Source of the DNA: Bacillota bacterium | Lineage (GTDB): Bacteria; Bacillota; UBA4882; UBA10575 | NCBI GenBank assembly: GCA_012838955.1 | Contig: DUOH01000054.1 | Coordinates: forward strand, 1 to 45,468 | Reading direction: 5' to 3' | Length of the DNA: 45,468 nucleotides | Shown here: positions 10,996 to 21,285 of the stretch, piece after piece | Numbering within the stretch: position 1 is the stretch's first letter | Layout of the letters: every line of letters starts with the position of its first letter | Notes under the pieces: model-generated | Told to the model about the DNA's origin: nothing | The model's input: the letters and a program-made list of their open reading frames with translations, nothing else | Databases searched by the model: none | Program-made: the position numbers and the translations under genes

Positions 10996-11253
10996 TTATG
11001 CCCGCTTGGCCATGGTGGCCCGGGCGCTCACGCCGGGAACATTCCCCAACCTCCCGGTGAGAGCATTAATCTCATCCTCTGTTCCTTCCACAATCAAGGC
11101 GATGGTGCCCAGGTTGCGGCTGTGGTCCGGGATTCCCATCCGGCCGATGATAACCTCCCCAGCCTCACTAATGATTTGATTTACTTTACACTGAATCTCC
11201 GTTGGGTTTTCCAGAATCACGGCGATCACGGCCAGGCGTTCTTCTTGATTCAT
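10996..11253 (-). CDS. Iron-only hydrogenase system regulator, TM1266 type
   Basis: 85 residues, a small ACT-like ferredoxin fold. The sequence LAVIAVILENP, KVNQIISEAGEVIIGRMGIP and IALIVEGTEDEINALTGRLGNVPGV is characteristic of the putative regulator family that accompanies HydE/HydF/HydG. Its action is not known; the resemblance to NikR C-terminal and ACT domains suggests ligand sensing without a DNA-binding region (inference). The start is preceded by AGAGGAGG. It lies 54 bp after the PilZ gene and could be co-transcribed with it; a strong terminator follows. Confidence 0.9.
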   Translation of the reverse strand: MNQEERLAVIAVILENPTEIQCKVNQIISEAGEVIIGRMGIPDHSRNLGTIALIVEGTEDEINALTGRLGNVPGVSARATMAKRA

Positions 11254-11307: not shown

Positions 11308-11850
11308 TTAGATGACCCGGGGATAGCGCTGGGCGGAATTCTCCAGAGAACTCTCCTCCGCTACAGCCGCCTTCCTCCTTATTCTGGCTTGTACTATATT
11401 CAATAAGCCGGTCAACTTCATGCGCTCATTTTCATCAATATCAAATTCAATGTCATACCGGTAACGACCTGAATCCACCTCTCGCACTCCGATCAGTCTT
11501 CCGTTCACCGTAACCTCCTCGTTGTTCAGCCGGGTGGTAAACTGCAGAACACACTCTTGATCGCTGGGCAACAGCAGATCAGCCAGGAAACTCAAGCCGC
11601 CCGGTCCCATATCCTCAATGAGAATATTTGCTTTCCTGCTGCTTCCGTCTTCGCCTTCGATCTCCAAGATCCTCATCTCTCCGGGCAGAGGTTGAGGGAA
11701 AGCAACCCGAAAATACTTGCGCCTCTCTTCCTGCAGTAGAAATTCACTCTCTTCAAAGGCTGTCCCAAGTTCGGCGTTGATTACCTCCGGATCCGGCAGC
11801 CCACGCCGATTCATTCCTTTATACGCCGCACGTCTTCTGAACAGGTCCAT
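11308..11850 (-). CDS. PilZ domain protein (probable c-di-GMP receptor)
   Basis: 180 residues. The PilZ signature is visible as RKYFRV (RxxxR, about residue 45) followed ~35 residues later by IEDMGPGGLSF, in the place of the usual D/NxSxxG; here the Ser is Gly. The remaining beta-barrel (TVNGRLIGVREVDSGRYRYDIEF) and a basic C-terminal helix (ARIRRK) fit. PilZ proteins bind c-di-GMP and alter motility or export. The start ATG is behind GGAGGGGGG. Its position between hydG and the hydrogenase regulator is unusual and may be accidental. Binding competence with the Ser-to-Gly change is uncertain. Confidence 0.8.
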   Translation of the reverse strand: MDLFRRRAAYKGMNRRGLPDPEVINAELGTAFEESEFLLQEERRKYFRVAFPQPLPGEMRILEIEGEDGSSRKANILIEDMGPGGLSFLADLLLPSDQECVLQFTTRLNNEEVTVNGRLIGVREVDSGRYRYDIEFDIDENERMKLTGLLNIVQARIRRKAAVAEESSLENSAQRYPRVI

Positions 11851-12006: not shown

Positions 12007-13455
12007 TTAGAGAAAAAGATCCCGTTCGCCTTCTTCCAATTTTCCCAAAGCCTCCAGCACAAAGGTTTTGCCCTTTCCCTCCGGTAACTTGGCCAACTGC
12101 TCCCGGATGACCTTTTCTCCAGCTTGCCGGGTCTCCTCATCCGCATAATCCAGCAAATACTCTTTGAGCGTACAGAGGGCGTTGGGGATACAGAAATTAT
12201 GCACAAAGCCGGTTTTGGCCAATTCCATAAAGTGTTCTCCAGTTCGCCCGGAACGGTAACATGCCGTGCAGAAAGACGGGATACACCCTGTGCGGCAGGT
12301 CTCGCGCACCACCTCGACGAGGGGACGGGTATCCCCCAACTGGAACTGTTCCTTATCCGGCATTAGGTTGGCGGTGGATTCCTGGTAACCGCCGACTCCA
12401 ATCCTACTCCCGGCGTCGATCTGGGAGATCCCCAGGGGAATCACTTCCCTGCGCACTTCCGGGCTTTCCCGCGCTGTGAGAATCATTCCCGTATAGGGCA
12501 CGGACAACCGGATGACCGCAATCAGCTTCTTGAAGTCTTCATCACTCACGGCATACGGCGGGTGAAAGGCCTCCGGGGTGTCGATCGCCGGTTGGATCCG
12601 GGGAAAAGAGATGGTGTGCGGACCAACCCCGTTAAACTTCTCTTCCAGATGGATAGTATGATAGAGCAAGCCCATGGCCTCAAATCTCCAGTCATATAAA
12701 CCGAAGAGCACGCCGATGCCTACATCGTCCACCCCGGCTTCCAAGGCCCGGTCATGGCAGTATAGCCGCCACCGGTAATGGCCTTTTAAAGTGTTGGCCG
12801 GATGCACTTGGTGATAGGTTGCATGGTGATAGGTTTCTTGAAACACTTGGAAGGTACCGATTCCTACTTCTTTCAACCGTTTGAGCTCTTCCACGCTCAG
12901 CGGGGCGCAGTTAATATTGGCCCGTCTGATCTCCCCTTTGGGGCTGCGGACACTGTAGACCTGCTTGATACTGTTGCAGAGGTAATCAATGTCGGTCTCC
13001 CCCGACTCGCCGTACACCAGAATCGTGCGCTTCTGACCTTCGCTGATCATAATCTCCACTTCACACTTGATCTCTTCCATGGTCAGTGTCTTCCGGTGAA
13101 TACTGCGATTGGAGGACCGGTAACCGCAGTATGAACAGTTGTTGCTACATTTATTGCTCATATACAGAGGAGCGAAGAAGACGATCCGGTCCCCGTACAC
13201 CTCCTGTTTTAACTTGCTGGCCAGGGCGTACATCTCCGCCAAGGTCTCCGCATCCTTGTTCTGCAGTAAAACCGCCATCTCCTCCGGTTCCAACCGGATC
13301 TGCCGGGCGGCTTTCGCCAATACCCGCCGGACATCAGCAGGCGAAGGATGCTCCCACTTATGTAAGATCCTCCAGATCTCGTCATCATCAATGAAATCCC
13401 GTTCCATCCGGTCATACTCCGCCAATTCCTTCCGATACCTTTTAAAACCAGTCAT
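12007..13455 (-). CDS. hydG: [FeFe] hydrogenase H-cluster maturase HydG (tyrosine lyase)
   Basis: 482 residues, the family length. HydG is a radical-SAM enzyme that cleaves tyrosine and supplies Fe(CO)(CN) units for the H-cluster. The radical-SAM CX3CX2C is C103, C107, C110 in NKCSNNCSYCGY. The second cluster-binding motif CX2CX22C, which separates HydG from ThiH, is present as C396, C399, C422 in CTACYRSGRTG...NFC. The start ATG follows AGGTAGGG. It has a ~390-nt leader with its own promoter and an internal terminator. hydE is not in the window; hydF lies 1.9 kb away on the other strand. Confidence 0.96.
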   Translation of the reverse strand: MTGFKRYRKELAEYDRMERDFIDDDEIWRILHKWEHPSPADVRRVLAKAARQIRLEPEEMAVLLQNKDAETLAEMYALASKLKQEVYGDRIVFFAPLYMSNKCSNNCSYCGYRSSNRSIHRKTLTMEEIKCEVEIMISEGQKRTILVYGESGETDIDYLCNSIKQVYSVRSPKGEIRRANINCAPLSVEELKRLKEVGIGTFQVFQETYHHATYHQVHPANTLKGHYRWRLYCHDRALEAGVDDVGIGVLFGLYDWRFEAMGLLYHTIHLEEKFNGVGPHTISFPRIQPAIDTPEAFHPPYAVSDEDFKKLIAVIRLSVPYTGMILTARESPEVRREVIPLGISQIDAGSRIGVGGYQESTANLMPDKEQFQLGDTRPLVEVVRETCRTGCIPSFCTACYRSGRTGEHFMELAKTGFVHNFCIPNALCTLKEYLLDYADEETRQAGEKVIREQLAKLPEGKGKTFVLEALGKLEEGERDLFL

Positions 13456-13570: not shown

Positions 13571-13659
13571 AAATAAAAGAGCCTTCTCTGCGAAGCCGGA
13601 GCATTCTCAGAAAAGGCCTGTTGCAAACAGATTATTCTATAAGAATGCTCTCCGGCTTC
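13571..13659 (-). promoter_or_regulatory. Attenuator-like terminator/antiterminator in the hydG leader
   Basis: Reading on the minus strand, an upstream arm (13659-13642, GAAGCCGGAG then CATTCT) pairs with a downstream arm (13607-13592) over 16 bp with a 2-nt bulge. The downstream arm also forms the 17-nt loop of a second hairpin, GCCTTTTCTG (13617-13608) with CAGAGAAGGC (13590-13581), one G-U, followed by TCTTTTATTT (13580-13571). The second hairpin has terminator form. The two pairings cannot coexist, as in attenuators and riboswitch expression platforms. The signal sensed is unknown. This lies about 115 nt upstream of hydG. Confidence 0.65.
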
Positions 13660-13846
13660 AGAATCCTCTTTAGCTTAAGAGACATTAAATGTGAAAAATC
13701 ATTCATGATGATGAAGGAGGACCGTCTCGGTCAGCCGGTTGTCGCCGACTGCTCTTCTGTACGCAGATCCAGAGAGGCACGGCCAAAATGAGATCACGAA
13801 TAACCATGTCCGACCGTCACCATCACAAATGTTTTAATTTTTTTAT

Positions 13847-13875
13847 ATTATATCATAAATTTCCCCTGATGAAAA
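13847..13875 (-). promoter_or_regulatory. Predicted hydG promoter
   Basis: On the minus strand, TTTTCA (13875-13870), a 17-bp spacer and TATAAT (13852-13847). Start near 13840 would give a ~385-nt leader before hydG. The leader also contains a 7-bp hairpin at 13732-13751 (CAGTCGG/CCGGCTG). The remainder of the gap to 14053 shows no gene. Confidence 0.55.
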
Positions 13876-15325: not shown

Positions 15326-16582
15326 ATGCCAGGATTGAATGAAACCCCAAGCTCATCCAGGCTGCAGATCGCCATCTTCGGGAGGAGAAACTCCGGTAAA
15401 TCCAGTATCATCAATGCCTTAACCGAGCAAACAGTCTCCTTGGTTTCGGAGGTGGCGGGCACTACCACCGACCCGGTGCGCAAAAGTATGGAACTGCTCC
15501 CCCTGGGCCCGGTAGTCTTCATCGACACCGCAGGCATCGATGATCAGGGAGTTTTGGGCGAAATGAGGGTGAAGCGCACCTTGGACGTTCTGAACCGGAC
15601 GGACCTGGCCATCCTGGTCGTCGACGGCGCCCGGGGCGTCGGGGAATGGGAAAAGAAGATCCTCGGCGCCATCCGGGAAAAGAAACTGCCGGTAGTGGGG
15701 GTGGTTAATAAGGTTGATCTGCCTGACTATCAAAGCGATCTGATCAAGGTCTGGCAGAAGGAATTGGGTCTTTCCCTAATCGAAGTCTCTTCCCTGACCG
15801 GCCGGGGAATTGACGACCTAAAACAAGCGCTCATCCGAACCGCCCCAGCCTCCCGTGAAGAACGGCCCCTCGTCTCCGACCTGATCAAACCGGGAGAAGT
15901 TGTTATCCTGGTCGTGCCTATAGACAGCGCCGCCCCCAAAGGACGGCTGATTCTCCCGCAGCAACAAGTCATCCGTGATCTCTTGGACCATGGAGCGCTG
16001 GCCCTGGTCACCAGAGAGAAAGAGCTGTCTCAAGCCCTGGCGGGAGTGGGGAAAAAGTCGGCGCTGGTGATTACGGATTCTCAGGCGTTTGGGGAGGTCT
16101 CCGCGCTTATCCCGGCCGACACTCCGCTGACTTCCTTCTCTATTATAATGGCCCGTTACAAAGGAGACCTAGATGAACTGGTCAGGGGGGCGCAAGCCGT
16201 AGAAGCCTTGCAGCCCGGTGACAGGGTACTGATCGCCGAGGCTTGTACCCACCACCGTCAGGCGGATGATCTCGGCGCCGTCAAGATCCCCCGCTGGCTG
16301 GAACAGAAGGTCGGGGGTAAACTTGATCTCCACTGGAGCACGGGGTTTAGCTTCCCATCCGACCTGAAAAGTTACAAATTAATCATCCATTGCGCCGGTT
16401 GCATGCTCAACCGCAGAGAGATGCTGTACCGAATTGCCCAGGCAAACCATGCCGGACTGCCTATTGTCAATTACGGGGTGCTCATCGCTTATCTCCACGG
16501 TATCCTTCCCCGGGCCCTCGCCCCCTTTCTGAGCGCAGGCGATCAAGGGGTCGGGACGCGGAGAGACCCGGCTACGCCTTGA
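15326..16582 (+). CDS. hydF: [FeFe] hydrogenase H-cluster maturation GTPase HydF
   Basis: 418 residues. HydF is the GTPase scaffold on which the 2Fe subcluster is assembled and from which it is passed to the hydrogenase. The N-terminal G domain shows GRRNSGKSS (residues 19-27), switch Thr in GTTTDPV, DTAG and NKVD. The C-terminal cluster site is C307-T-H309 with H355-C356-A-G-C359, fitting CxH...HCxxC. The middle dimerisation domain is intact. RBS AAGGAGG precedes ATG by seven bases. It is read away from hydG and preceded by the terminated RNA unit, so its own transcription must use read-through or an unseen promoter. Confidence 0.96.
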   Translation: MPGLNETPSSSRLQIAIFGRRNSGKSSIINALTEQTVSLVSEVAGTTTDPVRKSMELLPLGPVVFIDTAGIDDQGVLGEMRVKRTLDVLNRTDLAILVVDGARGVGEWEKKILGAIREKKLPVVGVVNKVDLPDYQSDLIKVWQKELGLSLIEVSSLTGRGIDDLKQALIRTAPASREERPLVSDLIKPGEVVILVVPIDSAAPKGRLILPQQQVIRDLLDHGALALVTREKELSQALAGVGKKSALVITDSQAFGEVSALIPADTPLTSFSIIMARYKGDLDELVRGAQAVEALQPGDRVLIAEACTHHRQADDLGAVKIPRWLEQKVGGKLDLHWSTGFSFPSDLKSYKLIIHCAGCMLNRREMLYRIAQANHAGLPIVNYGVLIAYLHGILPRALAPFLSAGDQGVGTRRDPATP

Positions 16583-17539: not shown

Positions 17540-18211
17540 TCAACCATGATCCCTTGCTGAAGCTCTCTGGTTGATCTTAAAGGAGAGTACCATCAAACTC
17601 TCACTGATATGCACATGTTCCACACAAACATCATCCGGCACTTTCAGGGAAACCGGAGCAAAATTCCAGATCCCCTTGACTCCTCCTTCCACCAGTAGAT
17701 CAGCGATCTCTTGGGCAGCAAAGTCCGGAACAGTAATGATTCCGATCTCCACCGACTGCTCATGCAAGAAGTCTCCCAATTCCGCCACATCTTTTACTAC
17801 CAGACCGTTGATGCTTTTCCCAATCTTCTGCGGGTCATGATCGAAGATCGCAGTCAGCAAGAAGCCCTTGCGGTAGAAGTTCTCATAATTAATTAAAGCC
17901 CTGCCCAGATATCCGGCGCCGATCAAGACCATCCGGTTCGTGGTATTCAGCCCCAAAATTCTGTTTACCGCCGTCAATAGGTCATCCACCCGGTAACCAT
18001 AGCCTTGTTGGCCGAAAGACCCGAACCAACTGAGGTCTTGACGTAATTGAGAAGCGCTCATCTTCATCCTGGCCGCCAGTTCCCGTGAAGATACTCTTTC
18101 CACTTCCCTCTGGGCCAGATCTGACAGGTAGCGATGGTACAAAGGGAGACGTCTGATTACCCCCGCCGGTATTCCGGCCGGACTAGTCTTCTTTGGGTTT
18201 TCCGTACGCAC
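17540..18211 (-). CDS. rex: Redox-sensing transcriptional repressor Rex
   Basis: 223 residues. Rex represses fermentation genes and releases DNA when NADH is high. The N-terminal winged helix is visible (residues about 15-75, VSSRELAARMKMSASQLRQDLSWFG with the following FGQQGYGY wing), then the Rossmann domain with LIGAGYLGRAL, DHDPQKIG and a C-terminal domain-swap helix. I start at GTG 18211: GGAGGTGA lies just upstream, whereas the ATG at 18226 would make the RBS part of the gene. Its target candidate is adhE, whose control region has two Rex-box-like sites. Confidence 0.94.
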   Translation of the reverse strand: MRTENPKKTSPAGIPAGVIRRLPLYHRYLSDLAQREVERVSSRELAARMKMSASQLRQDLSWFGSFGQQGYGYRVDDLLTAVNRILGLNTTNRMVLIGAGYLGRALINYENFYRKGFLLTAIFDHDPQKIGKSINGLVVKDVAELGDFLHEQSVEIGIITVPDFAAQEIADLLVEGGVKGIWNFAPVSLKVPDDVCVEHVHISESLMVLSFKINQRASARDHG

Positions 18212-18395
18212 TTCTTCACCTCCCATCAGCTTCCCGCCGATGTATTATTCCGCTCCTACTCAGGTTTCTCCTCTTGTCCAGACAAACAGCGGAAAGCTTC
18301 TCACCGGTAAAGGCGAAGCAACTTTCGGCCAGGTAAGACCGTTGCGCTGTTAGCAATAGGTTATTTTACAGGATTTCCCGTCTGACGCCGGGCTT

Positions 18396-21089
18396 TTAGG
18401 AAACCTTCTCTTGCCCGGAGTTTAATCCTTTTCCTTCATACACCTCTTGATACAGAGCCTCGATTTCGTTGACCAAAGGCATACGCGGATTAGTACCGGT
18501 GCATTGGTCATTGAAGGCAAGATCAGACATCTCCCTTACTTCTCTTCGGAATGCTTCCGGATCGACTCCGGCTGCTTTCAACGATAACGGGATCTCCAAC
18601 TCGCGCATTAGCCCTCTGATGGCCTTAATCAGACTGGTTACTCCCTCTTCAGTAGTTTCAGCCGGCAATCCCAGAAAACGGGCGATTTCCGCGTATCTCT
18701 CCGGTGCTTTATGGTATTCGTATTGGGGAAAAGCCACAAATTTGCTGGGCTTAGCGGCGTTGTAATTGATCACATAGGGCAGAAGAATGGCATTGGCCCG
18801 GCCGTGGGGGATATGAAATTTACCGCCCAGGACATGCGCCATACTGTGGTTCAAGCCCAAAAAGGCGTTGGTAAAGGCCATCCCGGCTAAACAAGAAGCG
18901 TTATGCATCTTCTCCCTGGCTTCTTTATCCTCACCGTTTCTATAAGCCCGCGGCAAGTATTCAAATACTAGTTTAATGGCTTTCTCCGCCAGTGCGTCCG
19001 TATAATCCGAGGCCATCACCGACACATAGGCTTCAATGGCATGGGTGAGCACATCCATCCCGGTATCGGCGGTTACGGATTTAGGTACCGTCAACACCAA
19101 CTCCGGGTCGATGATGGCGATATCCGGAGTTAATTCATAATCCGCCAAGGGGTATTTGATCTGCCGCTTCCGGTCTGTAATTACGGCAAAAGCCGTTACC
19201 TCGGAACCAGTGCCGGAAGTGGTGGGGATAGCCACAAAGGTGGCTTTCTTTCCTAAATGTGGAAACTTAAAGGCTCTCTTCCGGATATCAGCGAACTTCA
19301 GACGCAAGGTCTCAAACTCCGTCTCCGGATTCTCATAAAACAGCCACATACCTTTAGCCGCATCCATCGCCGACCCGCCACCCAAGGCGATGATGATATC
19401 GGGTTGAAACTCATTCATCAACCTGCAGCCTTGCTTGACCGTTTCCACGGAAGGGTCCGGTTCCACCTCGGAGAAGATTCGATAATCCATATCCGTCTTT
19501 TCCAGGTGGTAAAGGATCTTATCGACAAACCCCAGTTTAACCATGAACGGATCAGTGACGATAAAGGCTTTTTCCCCTTTAAGCTTGGCGAGATATTGGA
19601 GAGAACCGTATTCAAAGTAGACCTTTTGGGGAACTTTGAACCATTTCATCCGGTCTTTCCGCAGCGCAACCCGTTTGATGTTAATCAGATTTCTAACACT
19701 GATATTGTCCGTGGTTGAATTCTTCCCCATCGAACCGCAACCCAGGGTCAGAGAAGGAGTGTTGGTATTATAAAGATCACCGATGGCGCCGTGCGCGGAA
19801 GGAGAGTTCACCAACAAGCGTCCGGTTCTGACCTGCCGGGCGAATTCATTAATCACCTGCTCGTCGGTGGAGTGGATCACCGCGGAGTGCCCCAGACCGC
19901 CGAATTCGGTCATCTCTTCGCACCGTTTGATCCCTTCCCGGTAATCGGAGACGATATAGCAGGCCAAAATGGGGCTGAGTTTCTCTCTGGACAGGGGATA
20001 TTGCGGGCCGACCCCTTCCAACTCCGCCACCAGAATCTTGGTGTCCGGCGGAACCTTCAGGCCGGCCATTTCCCCTATTTTAACAGCTGGTTGCCCCACC
20101 ACCGCCGGACTCATACTCATTCTCTTCTCATCAATCGCTACTTTGGAGAGAGCCGCAATCTCCTCTGGTTTTAGGAAGTAGCATCCATACTCAGTCATTA
20201 ACTCTTTAACCTCTGCCGCTACCTCTTGGTCAATGATGACCGCTTGTTCGGAAGCGCAAATCATTCCGTTATCAAAGGTTTTGCTTAAAATTAAATCGGT
20301 TACTGCCCGTCGCAGATTGGCGGTTTTCTCTATATAGCAGGGAACATTTCCCGGGCCGACGCCCAGAGCCGGTTTTCCGCTGGAGTAAGCGGATTCCACC
20401 ATGCCTGCGCCGCCGGTGGCCAGGATCAGGCTGATTCCCTGGTGTTTCATTAAGAGGTTCGTCGCTTCAATGGAGGGTTTTTCGATCCACCCAATGCAAT
20501 CCTCTGGCGCTCCGGCGGCCACCGCAGCCTCCCGCATGACCCGGGCCGCGGCAATACTGGACTGAATCGCCTGTGGATGAAAACTGAAAATAATCGGATT
20601 TCTGGTCTTGATGGCAATCAAGCATTTAAACATCGTAGTAGAGGTGGGATTGGTGACCGGTGTTACTCCGGCGATGATGCCGATCGGTTCGGCGATCTTC
20701 ATGTATCCTTCTTCTTCATTTTCTTCGATGACACCGACGGTCTTTTCGTTCTTGATATCATGATATACATATTCCGTGGCAAATAGATTCTTAGTGATTT
20801 TATCTTCGTAGACACCCTTTCCCGTCTCTTCATAGGCCAGGCGCGCCAACTCCATGTGTCGATCCACTCCGGCCAAGGCCATGGCTTTGACAATCGCGTC
20901 AATCCGCTCTTGGGTATATTCCAGCAGTTTCTTTCCGGCTCGCGCCGCCTTGTCTACCAACTCATTGATACTCTCCTCTACTGTCTGTTCGGGAGAGTGC
21001 TTGGCTTCCATCAATACCACCTTACCCATGCCCGCCCGGGCACAGTCCGCCGTTTCCGTAGGCGTTTTTTTCATCCCGATGTTTTTCAT
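18396..21089 (-). CDS. adhE: Bifunctional acetaldehyde-CoA/alcohol dehydrogenase AdhE
   Basis: 897 residues. It converts acetyl-CoA to ethanol using two NADH. The N-terminal aldehyde dehydrogenase domain (about 30-460) has the catalytic Cys near 278 in NGMICASEQ. The C-terminal iron alcohol dehydrogenase domain (about 470-890) shows GGGSAMDAAKGMW, PTTSGTGSEVT and the metal-binding His residues in GLNHSMAHVLGGKFHIPHG. The start ATG 21089 has GGGGG eight bases upstream; ATG 21104 is less likely. A long leader with Rex-like sites precedes it, and rex follows on the same strand. Confidence 0.97.
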   Translation of the reverse strand: MKNIGMKKTPTETADCARAGMGKVVLMEAKHSPEQTVEESINELVDKAARAGKKLLEYTQERIDAIVKAMALAGVDRHMELARLAYEETGKGVYEDKITKNLFATEYVYHDIKNEKTVGVIEENEEEGYMKIAEPIGIIAGVTPVTNPTSTTMFKCLIAIKTRNPIIFSFHPQAIQSSIAAARVMREAAVAAGAPEDCIGWIEKPSIEATNLLMKHQGISLILATGGAGMVESAYSSGKPALGVGPGNVPCYIEKTANLRRAVTDLILSKTFDNGMICASEQAVIIDQEVAAEVKELMTEYGCYFLKPEEIAALSKVAIDEKRMSMSPAVVGQPAVKIGEMAGLKVPPDTKILVAELEGVGPQYPLSREKLSPILACYIVSDYREGIKRCEEMTEFGGLGHSAVIHSTDEQVINEFARQVRTGRLLVNSPSAHGAIGDLYNTNTPSLTLGCGSMGKNSTTDNISVRNLINIKRVALRKDRMKWFKVPQKVYFEYGSLQYLAKLKGEKAFIVTDPFMVKLGFVDKILYHLEKTDMDYRIFSEVEPDPSVETVKQGCRLMNEFQPDIIIALGGGSAMDAAKGMWLFYENPETEFETLRLKFADIRKRAFKFPHLGKKATFVAIPTTSGTGSEVTAFAVITDRKRQIKYPLADYELTPDIAIIDPELVLTVPKSVTADTGMDVLTHAIEAYVSVMASDYTDALAEKAIKLVFEYLPRAYRNGEDKEAREKMHNASCLAGMAFTNAFLGLNHSMAHVLGGKFHIPHGRANAILLPYVINYNAAKPSKFVAFPQYEYHKAPERYAEIARFLGLPAETTEEGVTSLIKAIRGLMRELEIPLSLKAAGVDPEAFRREVREMSDLAFNDQCTGTNPRMPLVNEIEALYQEVYEGKGLNSGQEKVS

Positions 21090-21236
21090 AGACGAAACCC
21101 CCATTCAATCAATAATTTCTCTTCTGGCGAATAAAAACACTTATCTATATTGTGCTTCTTTTATCTTTACCTATTACGGACTTGATTCTAAAAGACGATG
21201 GCTGGACGCGCACGAGCACACGGTGACGGCCTCGAC

Positions 21237-21285
21237 GAAGTTTGTTATTTTTTTAACATACTCTGTTAAAAAAATAACAAACTTC
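21237..21285 (-). promoter_or_regulatory. Double Rex operator in a 22-bp perfect palindrome
   Basis: The arms 21237-21258 and 21264-21285 are perfectly complementary around TACTC. Inside are two sites of Rex form (TTGTTAA-N4-TTAACAA): 21242-21259, with one mismatch in each half, and 21263-21280, with mismatches at the first base and in the right half. They lie from about +1 to +45 of adhE, just after its -10, where a bound repressor would block transcription. The Rex consensus is established for Bacillota; binding here is inferred. Confidence 0.8.

Follow-up and report, generated by a model that had tools for sequence, protein, structure and literature searches.

A conserved GA hairpin in hydG and TM1266 leaders of Bacillota and its putative role in transcription attenuation

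Introduction

[FeFe] hydrogenases require HydE, HydF and HydG. Among the RNA hairpins that compete with a terminator, the LicT/SacY RAT hairpins and the ANTAR dual hairpins are short and sometimes occur in tandem, and the gene of their regulator is often found in the operon.

Leader RNAs have been described both in a similar layout and near hydrogenase genes. The HMP-PP riboswitch (thiS motif) has an aptamer embedded in the terminator and occurs exclusively with HET-P genes (PMC6478431). A Moco riboswitch lies 5ʹ of a hydrogenase cluster in Eubacterium limosum, and this leader RNA was proposed to control the operon (PMC5651825). Control of hydG has been described at the level of DNA: in two papers, Rex represses hydG and a TM1266-like regulator while sensing NADH/NAD+ (PMC6391272, PMC8457756), and the Rex targets of C. 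thermocellum include an energy-coupling factor transport protein (PMC8457756). The words ‘leader’, ‘terminator’ and ‘untranslated’ do not occur in PMC6391272.

Here we analyzed the hydG leader of a Bacillota contig of 45,468 nucleotides, referred to as the window, and the leaders of its relatives. The leader contains a short conserved element, which we named the GA hairpin. It resembles known terminator/antiterminator leaders (riboswitch platforms and protein-dependent attenuators) in its mutually exclusive structures, its predicted default read-through, and a small recognition hairpin that overlaps the antiterminator. It differs from them in that it matches no described class that we found, and in that its regulon consists of [FeFe]-hydrogenase maturation and a few transporters. 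Like RAT and ANTAR hairpins it is short, sometimes tandem, and competes with a terminator, but it carries a pair of symmetric 2x2 loops of the GA type, separated by 4 bp, its candidate protein is NikR/ACT-like, and its stabilization would terminate rather than antiterminate. With the HMP-PP riboswitch it shares the character of a compact, terminator-linked leader RNA in Firmicutes (PMC6478431); the GA hairpin, however, is located upstream of the terminator and accompanies hyd genes, TM1266 and transporters, which places it outside that class. The Moco riboswitch belongs to an established Rfam family, RF01055, to which the GA hairpins gave no match.

Results

The window gene hydG (12007..13455, minus strand; TIGR03955, E 1.4e-150) codes for the [FeFe] hydrogenase H-cluster maturase and is the gene that the leader would control. 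The leader runs from about 13840 to 13456 on the minus strand, behind a promoter-like sequence, TTTTCA-17-TATAAT with a TG before the -10 element (13847..13875, minus). This site (13875-13847) is sigma-70-like with 10/12 matches; it is a consensus match only, and the number of such sites in the region was modestly above chance (7 vs 4.0 +/- 1.9).

An intrinsic terminator with a T tract lies ahead of the hydG coding region (13617-13581, minus). Its 5ʹ arm (13608..13617) pairs with its 3ʹ arm (13581..13590), 13617-13608 with 13590-13581, by 10 pairs including one G-U, and is followed by the T-rich tail TCTTTTATTT (13571..13580). The antiterminator on the same strand is formed by 13659-13642 and 13607-13592, with 16 pairs arranged as 8+8 flanking a 2-nt bulge. 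Arm 1 (13642..13659) and the GA hairpin (13648..13681, minus) have the hairpin’s 3ʹ strand in common, and arm 2 (13592..13607) is located in the terminator loop. An earlier note on this DNA had proposed the 16-bp long-range pairing of 13592-13607 with 13642-13659 and the position of its distal arm inside the loop of a 10-bp terminator. Its coordinates were exact, all pairs were Watson-Crick, and the loop position was confirmed. Since the terminator loop and the distal arm of the antiterminator are one and the same segment, antiterminator and terminator are mutually exclusive, and because the 3ʹ strand of the hairpin belongs to an antiterminator arm, GA hairpin and antiterminator exclude each other as well. 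By these shared strands, the combination of hairpin and terminator (OFF) excludes the antiterminator (ON). The sensor that the note had placed at 13660-13840 did not hold as a whole region: the conserved sensor-like element is 13648-13681, overlapping the antiterminator.

The 5ʹ part of the leader was predicted, from folds of this leader and of the leaders of relatives, to form a multibranched domain closed by a 15-bp helix (13700..13831, minus). This domain is a window-specific elaboration. Close relatives have a simpler helix as its counterpart, none was found elsewhere, and a GA hairpin, the first of two, often occupies that place.

The leader was folded in both states, as the note had suggested. 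For 13700-13566, the antiterminator state had an energy of -40.9 kcal/mol and the state of hairpin plus terminator -37.6 kcal/mol; the antiterminator was thus better by only 3.3 kcal/mol, a difference within the error of the model. The 278-nt leader folded better than 200/200 shuffles (z = -4.07). Of dinucleotide-shuffled leaders, 1/2000 had a terminator with a loop complementary to an upstream arm, and no second instance of this layout was found in the window, whichever strand was considered. When growing transcripts were folded, the local hairpin persisted up to about 13610, and the antiterminator replaced it as 13607-13592 emerged.

The GA hairpin of the window (CTCT-TA-AGCT-AA-AGAGGATTCT-GA-AGCC-GG-AGAG) is 34 nt long, with one A-C mismatch in its 4-bp middle stem. 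The plan of the conserved switch element is an outer stem, a 2x2 loop GA/RA, 4 bp, a 2x2 loop RA/GA, an inner stem and a variable loop. Two covariance models were built, R1 from 23 sequences and R2 from 77. The window hairpin scored 38.7 bits with R1 (E 7.6e-7) and was the sole R1 match in its own whole genome. When 102 matches were aligned (96 distinct), 92.9% of the cells were paired. In the 96 distinct hairpins, 252 cells carried double changes, against 77.6 after shuffling, a number reached by 0/500 shuffles. The covariation score was 0.696, compared with 0.246 for shuffled and 0.085-0.205 for slid controls; the rows had been aligned to the model, which favours the model’s own structure. 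Positions C3, A12, G14, C30 and G41 were invariant in the 96 sequences, while the middle stem of four pairs was free in sequence; either strand reads approximately CUGA-N4-RAGG. A kink-turn combines tandem G-A pairs with an adjacent bulge of 3 nt on a single strand; the GA hairpin, with symmetric 2x2 loops flanking its middle stem, is not a kink-turn.

At gathering score, neither the window nor the GA hairpins of the searched loci matched any Rfam family, T-box included. A permissive Rfam search of the leader gave chance matches only (best E 0.83), among them SNORD37, mir-9457 and c-di-GMP-II-GCG. Nor did any title or abstract opening listed by full-text searches report such a hydG/TM1266 leader, in a literature that stops short of most subscription papers and of a 2017 survey of 224 candidate RNAs. 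The earlier note had known of no such element for hydG, in line with both searches. We rate the GA hairpin as a new RNA family, and the device that it forms as one of a known kind. Moco/tungsten riboswitches (RF01055) were observed near two other hydG loci (L043 6859-6975; L060 10878-10995).

The hydG loci of 80 genomes were then compared. In the nearest relatives (L021, L022, L023, L027, L036, then L033 and L038), a hairpin and a terminator are found just 5ʹ of hydG, and the terminator loop complements the 3ʹ strand of the hairpin, with compensating changes. The relatives’ leaders, whose alignment the earlier note called for, have the same order of elements. Outside the conserved 3ʹ part, BLAST matches of whole leaders were short and uninformative. 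A hand-written descriptor, derived from some of these same leaders with the Syntrophomonas-type group left out of its design, matched 39 times in the 144 kb preceding hydG (30/80 loci) and 11 times in 1.36 Mb elsewhere. The Syntrophomonas-type leaders and the TM1266 leaders of L039-L055 have the same hairpin plan with different stem sequences. Across the window and the 80 loci, R1 matched 56 times, with 23 of the matches being training rows of R1 itself; 54 lay on the coding strand no more than 2 kb ahead of hydG, and those in L063 and L069 were chance. A diverged GA hairpin was seen in Coprothermobacter platensis (L088 4574-4613) 5ʹ of a small gene and hydG, where no terminator was found downstream.

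A set of 398 genomes was then searched, whose assignment to Bacillota was inferred from named relatives. R1 matched in 41 at E <= 0.01. With R2 at E <= 0.1, 66 genomes matched, of which 48 were retained by context and 18 dropped (G008, G029, G076, G087, G108, G148, G166, G203, G271, G284, G315, G331, G347, G381, G396, G399, G404, G410). Without inspection, the R2 places in G076 and G148 and that of G399 on C75 were counted as chance. False positives of the models were low-complexity repeats of the GCTGAGGCTGAG type and matches in coding sequence. One dropped genome, G008, has a separate hairpin before hydE, seen with laxer filters, and in another, G347, a hairpin with a broken middle stem was noticed by eye before an apparently decayed TM1266 gene (L177).

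The model placed the GA hairpin before hydG, hydE, hydF and TM1266 in many Bacillota families. The first genes 3ʹ of it were TM1266, hydG, hydF (G006, G009, G011), hydE (G003, G363) and a few transporters. The filtered search underestimates the hairpin, because a further 19/40 TM1266 leaders matched with filters off: in about 0.5 kb before TM1266 of 40 genomes without an earlier match, 21 matches were obtained at E <= 0.16, 21/21 of them on the coding strand, and 19 loci had a hairpin. In the window, hydF (15326-16582, plus strand) is divergent from the hydG operon, and in the genome-wide model search no GA hairpin turned up before it, unlike in G006, G009 and G011 of the same family.

A loose test for a terminator downstream of the hairpin was passed by 65/66 curated hairpins, and in these 65 leaders the hairpin lay 15-84 nt upstream of the terminator; a strict terminator was present within 120 nt in 64/65, against 4.4 expected. 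In 33 non-redundant leaders, the complementarity of hairpins to their own terminators was -22.9 kcal/mol, compared with -19.6 +/- 0.6 kcal/mol for swapped terminators, a difference reached in 0/5000 permutations. Against shuffled hairpins, the pairing of hairpin with terminator gave z <= -1.64 in 19/33 leaders (window, z -2.4), and no excess was found in L135, L112 and L113. The strand that pairs with the terminator varies by group, the 5ʹ strand in some and the 3ʹ strand in others. Thus the alternative pairing is retained in relatives and is weak or absent in some groups; as predicted from sequence, the antiterminator is clear in many groups including that of the window and is not evident in all. 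The earlier note had compared the layout to attenuators and riboswitch expression platforms. The order of elements, the compensating changes and these family statistics uphold the layout itself, and regulation by a ligand stays putative.

Transporter genes also carry the hairpin. In family f41, 8/9 genomes had matches, most with a hairpin and a terminator before hydG. Five of these genomes (G064, G140, G173, G247, G270) have a near-identical hairpin before an ECF S-component gene, with its 3ʹ strand in the Shine-Dalgarno region; PF12822 (ECF S-component) was tested for G064 and G270. When 20 further places upstream of ECF homologues were searched, a hairpin before the ECF gene itself was found only in G105, the sixth f41 genome, as a diverged copy; G299 and G316 among them have a hairpin before TM1266 of a shared operon. 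The ECF gene directly follows TM1266 in these two genomes and in G223. In another family, G293 has two hairpins, one found by the model and one by eye, and a terminator before an ECF homologue. In G011, G012 and G013, hairpin and terminator precede an NMT1/SsuA-type ABC operon, and in G171 the hairpin precedes an SsuC-like permease operon. Genes neighbouring the transporters gave no clue to the ligand. In G171, the leaders before TM1266 and before the SsuC-type transporter (L116 and L135) both contain GA hairpins in tandem, and their terminators are almost identical; this suggests a duplication of the regulatory leader.

TM1266 was the only regulator seen to accompany the GA hairpin widely, and the hairpin is frequently directly before its gene. 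The window homolog (10996..11253, minus; TIGR03959, E 6.3e-27) is separated from hydG by an ORF of 180 aa without an NCBIfam match (11308..11850, minus). The whole chain of 85 aa was modelled as a bab-bab domain (pLDDT 93), which matched 2nzc, T. maritima TM1266, with Z 15.0. It also matched the regulatory domains of NikR (Foldseek E 6.5e-6; Z up to 13.5, rmsd 1.9, 84 aligned), and TM1266 lacks the N-terminal ribbon-helix-helix DNA-binding domain of NikR.

All retained hairpin genomes (48/48) have TM1266, which proves little because the hairpin precedes TM1266 itself in most of them and the count is circular. Two counts are less circular. Hairpins before hydG, hydF or hydE, sorted by hand, were found in 21 of the 182 genomes with both hydG and TM1266 and in 0/41 with hydG and no TM1266 (Fisher p 0.017, phylogeny-uncorrected). 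In those 182 genomes, the filtered search saw the hairpin in only 47. With filters off, no hairpin was found before hydG in 20/20 genomes that have hydG and no TM1266. In the second count, 19/40 TM1266 leaders compare with 0/20 hydG leaders of TM1266-less genomes (p 7.7e-5, phylogeny-uncorrected), a comparison of different genes with different upstream lengths. One exception was G010. It carries a hairpin in front of hydE and gave no match to TM1266; the genome is 94% complete, with partial matches to hydG.

Discussion

We consider it probable, at roughly 0.7, that the leader controls hydG by transcription attenuation and relies for this on the conserved GA hairpin, whose stabilization by an effector would lead to termination. 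During transcription, the GA hairpin would be the first to form. With the emergence of 13607-13592, the antiterminator would displace it by default and hydG would be read. An effector that keeps the hairpin closed would make its 3ʹ strand unavailable, so that the terminator could fold and transcription would stop; H-cluster assembly would in this way be repressed by feedback. In one family the hairpin lies over the Shine-Dalgarno sequence of the ECF gene, and there its closure would block translation.

As for the effector, our leading candidate, put forward tentatively, is the TM1266 protein, which may act together with a small molecule or metal that it binds. A symmetric TM1266 protein on the pseudo-two-fold hairpin would make an attractive model. 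One may speculate further that TM1266 oligomers bind GA hairpins in their own and other leaders, controlling by feedback both H-cluster assembly and precursor uptake through ECF/SsuABC-type transporters; TM1266 would then be a NikR/ACT-type sensor domain that lost, or never had, its DNA-binding part and acts on RNA. Direct binding of a small-molecule effector to the RNA is nearly as likely. The GA hairpin, alone or in tandem, could be a riboswitch for a metabolite or ion, with TM1266 only a member of the regulon and the hairpin-controlled transporters importing the ligand or a precursor. This possibility, which falls somewhat short of an even chance, gains from the same hairpin before transporters (ECF S-component, SsuC-type, NMT1/SsuA-type), from the ECF gene after TM1266 in three genomes, and from the five invariant hairpin columns. 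The domain is, however, very small for it, its conserved part being two symmetric 2x2 loops, and the lack of hairpins before hydG in the 20 TM1266-less genomes speaks for the protein.

An element with no effector at all appears unlikely. In that case a constitutive partial terminator would set a fixed level of read-through, and the hairpin would serve RNA stability or pausing, consistent with the putative status of any ligand or protein effector and with the different terminator-pairing strands between leaders; yet the strong covariation, the free stem identity with fixed internal loops and the recurrence before functionally linked genes argue for specific recognition. Two other readings of the window leader are very improbable. 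Inverted repeats of the length seen here are not unique, since the window has 12 pairs of >= 14 nt, but a chance repeat beside an unrelated terminator accounts poorly for a layout met in 1/2000 shuffled leaders and for an order and complementarity kept in relatives. Equally improbable is ribosome-mediated attenuation by a leader peptide: by eye, a 9-codon frame that starts with ATG close to the leader’s 5ʹ end has no evident Shine-Dalgarno sequence and no counterpart in L021-L023, L027 and L036.

If TM1266 acts on the hairpin, it would stand for a new class of regulators that bind RNA and control a riboregulon of their own, and a concrete job would be given to a family that NCBIfam names only ‘putative regulator’. 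Through the hairpin, transporters of the ECF and ABC types would be linked with the assembly of the H-cluster, a link that may point to a precursor or a signal, and the hairpin could be a handle to tune hydrogen production in thermophilic and syntrophic bacteria. Rex acts on the same genes as the GA hairpin, but by repression at the DNA level, in the Rex reports cited above; a conserved leader RNA would mean control after initiation, separate from the published control by Rex. In the window, the hydG promoter has no clear Rex site. Two Rex-like operators, TTGTTA-N6-TAACAA with 1 mismatch each, lie in a 22-bp perfect inverted repeat at 21242-21280, upstream of adhE (18396-21104, minus), and a rex gene is located at 17540-18226.
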